Source: Lacrimispora xylanolytica
GTDB lineage: Bacteria; Bacillota; Clostridia; Lachnospirales; Lachnospiraceae
Direction of reading: 5' to 3'
Assembly (NCBI RefSeq): GCF_026723765.1
Contig: NZ_CP113524.1
Span: 1,783,001-1,847,000, forward strand
Length of the DNA: 64,000 nt
The number at the start of each line of letters is the position of its first letter. Within the stretch, counting starts at the first letter, position 1. A model generated the notes under the pieces. That model did not search any database. It was not told the DNA's origin and was given only the letters and a program-made list of their open reading frames with translations. Shown piece after piece: positions 7,390-9,268 of this stretch. A program made the translations under genes and the position numbers.

Positions 7390-7472
7390 GTTCTTTTGTT
7401 CCTTTCCTGCTGTTTTCTTTGGGCAATCTGCATTATATCACAGAATCACTCCCTGAAACAAACCAAAACGCT

Positions 7473-7501
7473 TTGCGCATCATATTGGGCTATGCTATAC
7501 T
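7473..7501 (+). promoter_or_regulatory. Predicted sigma-A promoter of the FokI-like gene
   Basis: TTGCGC (7473-7478), 17-bp spacer, TATACT (7496-7501), giving a leader of about 20 nt before the GTG start. It lies in the divergent gap shared with the acyltransferase gene. No controller-protein (C-box) repeat was noticed. Confidence 0.65.
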
Positions 7502-7528
7502 TTAAGAAAAAACGAAGAGGAAATAACA

Positions 7529-9268
7529 GTGGCAGACAGAACATTTGGCTGGGTACAGGAGGCTTATACCCTGGGAAATTTAAAGAATGTGGTATCCGTA
7601 TTTGTGCCGGGATCCAGAATTAACCGGCTTCTTTGTACGGATAAAATTCCAAGGCTTATCTCCGAAAAGGATGGAAGGGATGATTTTATCCGTGAGCTTT
7701 CTGAGGAGATAATCTGTATCCCATATACCCATCTGAAGGGAAAGGGAACCCCCAGCGGGTTTACAAGAAGCAATGCACCCTGTTCCGGTATCATACAGGC
7801 CGTACTTCCAGGGCAGCGTAAGGAATATCAAAGTGACTGGCCGGCAGATTCCTTTTTAAGATGGGCAGTCAGTGTGGGATTCCTTTCCTACAGCAGAACA
7901 CAGGATGCTTGTTCCATTACAGAACTGGGTCACCAGTATGCATTGGCTTTGGAAGGAAGTGAAGAAGAGGCAGAGGTCCTTAAAACAGCATTTTTATCCT
8001 ATCCTCCTGTTTGCAGGGTTATGTCCTTATTAGGGGAAGAAGAGCATCTGACGAAATTTGAAATAGGTGCAAGACTTGGCTTTATCGGGGAAGCTGGTTT
8101 CACTTCCATCCCTCAGTACATGATATTAGAGGGACTTTTGGAAGCAGAAACAAAAGAGGAGAAGACAAAGCTTTTACAGGATACAGAAGGGACCAGTGAT
8201 AAATACGTCCGCACCATTTGCAGCTGGCTCATACAGGTGGGCTGGATCAGTAAGGCAGCGAAGGAAGTGATCACAGGTACCGGCAGTAAGAGCTCATCTG
8301 CAATGATACCTCAGTCTTATAAGCTTACTCTAAAAGGAAGAACGGTAATAAAGCACATCACGGGCGTATCCAGGTTTGCCAGGATTCCCAAGCGGGTCAT
8401 GTGGGACATGCTGGCGACGAAAGTGGCTGACCGGGACTACTTAAGAAACAGAAGAACCTATATTATAAAATACTTGGAAGGCAGCTATCGTTCCCCTGTA
8501 CAGGTTAAGGAATATTTAGAGAGCAAAGGGCTGAAAGAAGAAATTGAGACCATTCTTGATGATATCAGAAGCTTTGAAAACATCGGCCTTCAGGTAAAAA
8601 AGTCAGGAGATACCTACCGGATCATGGATGAAATTGTGGGCTTAGAGCTTCCGGAAGACGGAGAATTTATGTTACCTGTTAAATCAGAAGTCTCTGTCTT
8701 TAAAGATTATCTAAGAACTCATTTGACTCATGTAGACCACAGATACTTAATTTTGGTGGATCTTGGTTTTGACGGAAGCTCAGACCGTGATTATGAGATG
8801 AAGACAGCGGAACTTTTTACAGCCGAACTTGGTTTCATGGGCGCAAGACTTGGGGATACCAGAAAGCCTGATGTGTGTGTGTACCACGGAGCCAATGGGC
8901 TTATCATTGATAACAAAGCATATGGAAAAGGTTACTCTCTTCCGATCAAGCAGGCGGATGAGATCTATCGGTATATTGAGGAAAACAAGGAGCGGGATGC
9001 CCGTTTAAATCCAAACCAGTGGTGGAAGGTCTTTGACGAGTCTGTGACTCATTTCCGGTTTGCATTTATCTCAGGTTCCTTCACCGGAGGCTTTAAGGAC
9101 CGGATTGAACTTATTTCCATGCGGTCAGGAATCTGCGGAGCGGCAGTCAATTCCGTCAACCTGCTCTTAATGGCAGAGGAACTGAAATCAGGAAGGCTGG
9201 ACTATGAGGAATGGTTCCAATATTTTGATTGCAACGATGAAATTTCCTTTCCAGTATCCCTTACATAG
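7529..9268 (+). CDS. FokI-like type IIS restriction endonuclease, solitary
   Basis: A 579-aa protein matching FokI end to end as I recall it. N-terminal recognition region: RTFGWVQ at residues 4-10, APC--IIQA near 85, FLRWA near 110, HLTKF-IG-LGF-GE-GFTS near 175-195, EG-SDKY near 217, and F-R-PKRV-W-MLAT near 285. The C-terminal nuclease keeps the PD-(D/E)xK site: D448 in RKPD, then D461 and K463 in IDNK, equal to FokI D450, D467 and K469. It also keeps QADE--RY (D477, R481, the FokI dimer pair D483/R487), NP-QWWKV and ISGSF-G. GTG 7529 has GAAGAGGA 7 nt upstream. FokI cuts downstream of GGATG. No methyltransferase lies within this window on either side. Exact specificity is unproven. Confidence 0.93.
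   Translation: MADRTFGWVQEAYTLGNLKNVVSVFVPGSRINRLLCTDKIPRLISEKDGRDDFIRELSEEIICIPYTHLKGKGTPSGFTRSNAPCSGIIQAVLPGQRKEYQSDWPADSFLRWAVSVGFLSYSRTQDACSITELGHQYALALEGSEEEAEVLKTAFLSYPPVCRVMSLLGEEEHLTKFEIGARLGFIGEAGFTSIPQYMILEGLLEAETKEEKTKLLQDTEGTSDKYVRTICSWLIQVGWISKAAKEVITGTGSKSSSAMIPQSYKLTLKGRTVIKHITGVSRFARIPKRVMWDMLATKVADRDYLRNRRTYIIKYLEGSYRSPVQVKEYLESKGLKEEIETILDDIRSFENIGLQVKKSGDTYRIMDEIVGLELPEDGEFMLPVKSEVSVFKDYLRTHLTHVDHRYLILVDLGFDGSSDRDYEMKTAELFTAELGFMGARLGDTRKPDVCVYHGANGLIIDNKAYGKGYSLPIKQADEIYRYIEENKERDARLNPNQWWKVFDESVTHFRFAFISGSFTGGFKDRIELISMRSGICGAAVNSVNLLLMAEELKSGRLDYEEWFQYFDCNDEISFPVSLT

Follow-up and report, generated by a model that had tools for sequence, protein, structure and literature searches.

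A FokI-type endonuclease gene of Lacrimispora xylanolytica and its methyltransferase pair elsewhere on the chromosome

The gene at positions 7529..9268 (+) of the window, the whole 64,000-nucleotide stretch analysed here (G000:C1:1783001-1847000, on a single 4.516-Mb contig), almost certainly encodes the endonuclease (R) of a complete Type IIS restriction-modification (RM) system scattered on one chromosome, with two distant methyltransferases (M1 and M2) as its other components; in a near strain, this is the Csp12AI system. R and its counterpart in Clostridium sp. 12(A) (L067) share 577 of 579 residues, the two exceptions being positions 61 and 237; the two genes differ by 20 nucleotides, and the 13.7 kb around R is 99.5% identical. 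The window therefore derives from a very near strain, and the gene is the endonuclease of the already published Csp12AI system. According to the available text of Blow et al. 2016 (PMC4752239), Clostridium sp. 12(A) carries an M.FokI-like pair, M1/M2.Csp12AI, with a FokI-like endonuclease gene 1.2 Mb distant. There, both methyltransferases are functional (Cm6ATCC for M2, GGm6ATG deduced for M1), Csp12AI was expressed from a clone and characterised by its endonuclease activity, and the three genes are treated as one system (PMC4752239). To the known dispersed system, the present analysis adds its genus-wide spread, the contrast with linkage elsewhere, and the discordance between the branches of R and M.

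The endonuclease gene and its distant methyltransferases

R, a FokI-type Type IIS endonuclease gene orthologous to Csp12AI, is an open reading frame of 579 residues with a GTG start and no internal stop. Pfam places FokI_D1, FokI_dom_2, FokI_D3 and the cleavage domain in this one chain (E-values 7.9e-35, 9.3e-42, 2.9e-16 and 3.8e-58, all above the cut-off), and the alignment with crystallised FokI runs from end to end (E 6e-130, 40% identity), in agreement with the first-pass annotation, which had read the gene as a full-length FokI homologue. The catalytic triad and dimer pair that it had proposed are likewise confirmed by alignment: D448/D461/K463 correspond to FokI D450/D467/K469 and D477/R481 to FokI D483/R487, and all are invariant across R, three relatives and FokI. 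R thus combines the four domains of the FokI family with its PD-(D/E)xK triad and dimer pair. PADLOC labels the protein a Type II restriction enzyme, and an NCBIfam search of it returned no family.

The GTG start codon (7529..7531, +) is shared by every one of the 23 orthologues read, of which 22 are from the genus and one is from G056, a member of another genus. By eye, a likely ribosome-binding site, GAGGA, lies at 7517..7521 (+), 7 nt before the GTG, and a probable promoter at 7472..7501 (+), composed of TTTGCG, 18 nt and the extended -10 element TGcTATACT (TATACT at 7496-7501). A consensus promoter scan listed nothing at 7472-7501 and yielded 4 sites in total, against 4.8 in shuffled sequences. 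The sequence TGNTATACT, of which the window holds five copies, is found in the 120 bp preceding R at 18 of the 20 loci where R is unlinked to a methyltransferase (defined below); the two Hungatella loci are without it.

R lies between a SulP transporter gene and a group made up of desulfoferrodoxin, DUF4317 and acyltransferase genes, and the Pfam assignments bear out the acyltransferase and SulP neighbours named at first. Whole-genome profile searches with PF02086, PF01555, PF00145 and PF02384 gave no match inside the window, and the earlier statement that no methyltransferase occurs in these 64 kb holds for those four families. It does not extend to the genome. The only PF02086 matches in the whole genome are M1 and M2, side by side on the same chromosome as R at G000:C1:576543-578431. 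M1 (349 aa) starts at 576543, M2 (282 aa) ends at 578431, and the two genes overlap by 10 nt; with R at 1.79 Mb and M1/M2 at 0.58 Mb, the separation is 1.21 Mb. The top PADLOC model for both is a single 646-position two-domain methyltransferase, of which M1 covers positions 1-339 and M2 positions 362-641, and at the authentic FokI locus (L136), M.FokI shares 48% identity with M1 in one part and 52% with M2 in the other. By homology, then, the genome holds the two M.FokI-related adenine methyltransferases of a FokI-type RM system. Adjacent R and M genes are usual, though not essential, in such systems; here they lie 1.21 Mb apart.

The first-pass annotation had seen no companion methyltransferase and had suggested a genome-wide search for an M.FokI-like enzyme. 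That search finds M1 and M2, the halves of M.FokI, and the solitary claim fails; a solitary endonuclease is ruled out by the PF02086 search of the whole genome. Among the options that it had offered, protection encoded elsewhere proves to be the right one, given a split M.FokI homologue 1.21 Mb away whose 12(A) counterpart is published as active. As for the other families, PF01555 has one match over the cut-off in the genome (at 1386621) and three weak ones, PF02384 has one weak match barely over the cut-off, and PF00145 has none in the whole genome. The strong PF01555 match, at G000:C1:1386621-1387658 (L174), belongs to a 1071-aa frame and is the other strong methyltransferase match among the four families searched.

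The R gene itself contains six GGATG and one CATCC, including the GGATG at 7669 and 7678 pointed out earlier. Across the window, GGATG sites number 134 against 157 expected (z -2.5, rank 43 of 512 words). The earlier view that the site is not avoided stands, but the site is mildly rare. Protection through site avoidance is unsupported by these counts.

Distribution and inheritance of the dispersed layout

The dispersed layout characterises the genus Lacrimispora and is also found in Hungatella; its genes are inherited together and are under purifying selection. Counting the genome analysed here, M1 and M2 are each present in 24 of 24 genus genomes and R in 23 of 24, the sole genome without R being 67% complete. 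The R frame is intact in 22 of the 23 genus copies. G023, a single-contig assembly with 89% completeness and 6% contamination, has R split into two frames and M1 likewise; these split frames (G023:C1; L026, L028 and L053, on a contig shared with L095) perhaps reflect sequencing error. In the seven genus genomes assembled as single contigs (G000, G002, G009, G012, G014, G015 and G023), R and M are separated by 1.2-1.6 Mb, taking the shorter way round if these contigs are circular. The same layout is found in G056, Hungatella hathewayi and H. effluvii, where M1 is 77-78% and R 70-71% identical. The 10-nt overlap of M1 and M2 recurs in all 24 loci read (23 genus genomes, G023 excepted, plus G056).

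Among the 17 genus loci of the named collection, within the stretch covered, 15 have DUF4317 upstream of R and 16 have SulP downstream of it; of 24 genus loci, 22 carry a GGDEF-motif gene before M1. Around M, the neighbours are different in Hungatella and G056, and in Hungatella those around R are different as well. Nine chosen pairs gave dN/dS ranges of 0.058-0.090 (R), 0.019-0.092 (M1) and 0.012-0.098 (M2), with dS above 1, and hence unsure, in a few pairs. Distances between R's and between M's are correlated at r = 0.93 over 23 genomes (22 genus plus G056), a value reached in none of 2000 permutations. A silent pseudogene is disfavoured by the dN/dS values and the intact frames, and the initial suggestion that the enzyme might be silent or used alone is contradicted by purifying selection together with the published cloning and activity in 12(A). 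A second FokI-type cluster occurs in one genus member at G018:C89:29251-32175 (partly contained in L027); it has a fused 674-aa methyltransferase frame, 42% identical to M1 and 49% to M2, adjoined by a FokI-like stretch (35% identity, residues 279-574). A literature search, with REBASE, supplements and most subscription journals outside its scope, found no report of genus-wide spread or of R-M discordance.

Elsewhere, R and M are usually linked. In a survey of the best 80 of 98 FokI-like loci, 20 lack an M homologue over 6 kb or as far as the contig reaches: 17 from the genus, G056 and the two Hungatella loci. Of the other 60, 57 have an M homologue no more than 6 kb from R; of these, L139 has M on the opposite strand, downstream of R, and in L120, L128 and L141 just a piece of M2 is visible, where the contig ends. 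In the three without M (L089, L101 and L131), R is no more than 360 bases from a contig end. A search for relics of a lost adjacent methyltransferase near R in the 20 unlinked loci found none, its three hits being at chance level (E 0.22-0.75).

The wider family was surveyed with 299 genomes, one per genus. R is matched in 11 of them, over most of its length in seven; M lies apart from R in G000, G056 and G120, and M1 is beside an R match in G200, G240, G343 and G365. An exclusive pairing of R and M is spoken against by the M1 matches, which number 37 among the 299, most of them weak. In G137, M1 is present at 68% identity and R is absent, with no M2 seen in the 6 kb around M1. M1-like genes at L167:477-1538 (G137:C95) and L168:5591-6646 (G161:C6), 68% and 51% identical, both belong to genomes without a FokI-like match and have no M2 in the stretches taken. 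A collection of 50,697 phage records gave no match to R, which leaves carriage by phages unsupported. FokI-like proteins occur in 13 plasmid records, all below 60% identity to R. Eight of these matches (H6-H13) are on Staphylococcus plasmids and cover residues 4-297, the recognition part, only; six nevertheless carry the annotation of a FokI catalytic domain protein.

Discordant ancestry of R and M

The trees of R (58 rows) and M (56 rows) are quick trees, and the groups tested were defined with the trees already in view. In the R tree, the genus and Hungatella group with E-type enzymes, characterised by RTFGWVQEAY, in a set of 26 with 100% SH-aLRT; this set includes L103, which is without the RTFGWVQEAY motif, and L110, whose matched stretch is without the N-terminus. 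In the M tree, the M's of linked E-type systems fall in one part (L093 apart), and the genus M's stand beside L137 and the M.FokI branch. Constraining the genus and E-linked M's to be monophyletic is rejected (AU p 1.5e-45, with L093 left out and L110 added), as is a constraint uniting the genus and Hungatella R's with L137 (p 1.7e-8). The same test does not reject a separate clade of E-linked R's (AU p 0.058), and for this reason partner exchange is stated without a direction.

R and M thus belong to different branches of the FokI family, which suggests that R has changed its methyltransferase partner. Since the two are not sister pairs in the family trees, M is probably not the original partner of R. 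The hybrid cluster at L093:4966-8632 is a natural intermediate: it carries an M1 of the E-linked clade, an E-type R and then, downstream of R, an M2 of the genus/L137 type. In addition, a supported group of seven R's (L119, L125, L129, L134, L137, L140 and L144) is partnered with M's from different branches. Partner exchange therefore seems to be recurrent in these phylogenies, which suggests that the M branches share one specificity. In the shared ancestry of Lacrimispora and Hungatella, a FokI-type endonuclease of one lineage probably came to depend on the M pair of another, encoded elsewhere; the scattered hybrid would then have become a core, vertically inherited immune function rather than a mobile, self-preserving cassette.

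Specificity, alternative readings and known systems

The FokI family is defined in part by recognition of GGATG and cleavage at 9/13. FokI Q12, R79, W105, E220, K225 and R228, which we take to be base contacts, are invariant in 79 of 79 homologue rows. Every one of the 25 rows from the genus, G056 and Hungatella, and each of the 16 from linked E-type systems, has E at the position of FokI N13; of the remaining 38, 21 have N and 17 have D. The N217 position varies among rows. In the available text of PMC4081073, a FokI N13Y mutant is binding-deficient. The shifted specificity raised as an option at first is unsupported, since the published M sites are GGATG/CATCC and the six contact positions are invariant, yet N13 is replaced by E. 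By analogy with FokI, R would recognise GGATG and cut at the same exact position as FokI.

In the proposed mechanism, the N-terminal domains of R would bind GGATG, and R would dimerise before its C-terminal PD-(D/E)xK domain cuts at a distance, as in FokI. M1 (GGm6ATG) and M2 (Cm6ATCC) would each methylate one strand, so that host DNA would be spared and unmethylated incoming DNA cut. Phage defence is presumably the benefit of the system.

It is very unlikely that R has a target other than that of M1/M2, the genes being kept separately as two solitary functions with R otherwise protected or regulated. Such a divergence would fit the variable position 217 and the E that replaces FokI N13 throughout the 25 rows of the genus, G056 and Hungatella. 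The different family branches of R and M would also fit it, but closely related R's are partnered with M's of different branches, and the L093 cluster combines an E-type R and a genus-type M2. R and M also co-occur in 23 of 24 genus genomes, in G056 and in the two Hungatella, just one other strong methyltransferase match is found in the genome among the four families searched, and the available text of Blow et al. (PMC4752239) handles the three genes as one system.

That R is silent or decaying, with the methyltransferases kept for another reason, is hardly credible. The GTG start, the far-off partner and the promoter scan without a site at 7472-7501 could be read in this way, but TGNTATACT is retained upstream in 18 of 20 unlinked loci and the 577/579-identical 12(A) protein was active when cloned, according to the available text of PMC4752239. 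Likewise, R and M1 each lie in two frames in G023 (the assembly 89% complete and 6% contaminated), but the R frame is intact in 22 of 23 genus copies and dN/dS is 0.058-0.090 in nine of nine pairs. The reading preferred here remains a complete, dispersed RM system.

Complete RM systems are described in the available text of PMC4176335 as rapidly gained and lost and mostly outside core genomes, and very few distantly located systems are known to function. In the present case, the parts are proven in one strain, lie more than 1 Mb apart and occur in nearly every genome of the genus, a clean case for asking how RM systems become domesticated and swap partners without host death.

The closest known system is Csp12AI itself, in which, as here, a FokI-like R lies ~1.2 Mb from a split M.FokI-like pair. 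The experiments were performed on 12(A), another strain, and the present system is described by sequence comparison; the available text of the Csp12AI paper (PMC4752239) does not describe genus-wide spread or an exchanged partner. FokI/M.FokI of Planomicrobium okeanokoites (L136) shares the R domains and catalytic residues, but its M.FokI is one 656-aa open frame directly upstream of R, unlike the two overlapping genes 1.21 Mb away in the present system. The linked E-type systems (e.g. L085, L088 and L107) have R's 62-64% identical with the same RTFGWVQEAY start; in contrast, their M1-M2 genes are immediately upstream of R and come from a different M clade, with 40-43% identity to the M1 and 45-47% to the M2 found here. 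The putative separated R-M systems of Ershova et al. 2012 (PMC3488263) also have R and M far apart, paired through comparative genomics; in the available text, Table 2 lists seven Type II groups in which Lacrimispora and Hungatella are unnamed, and 'FokI' is absent from the main text.
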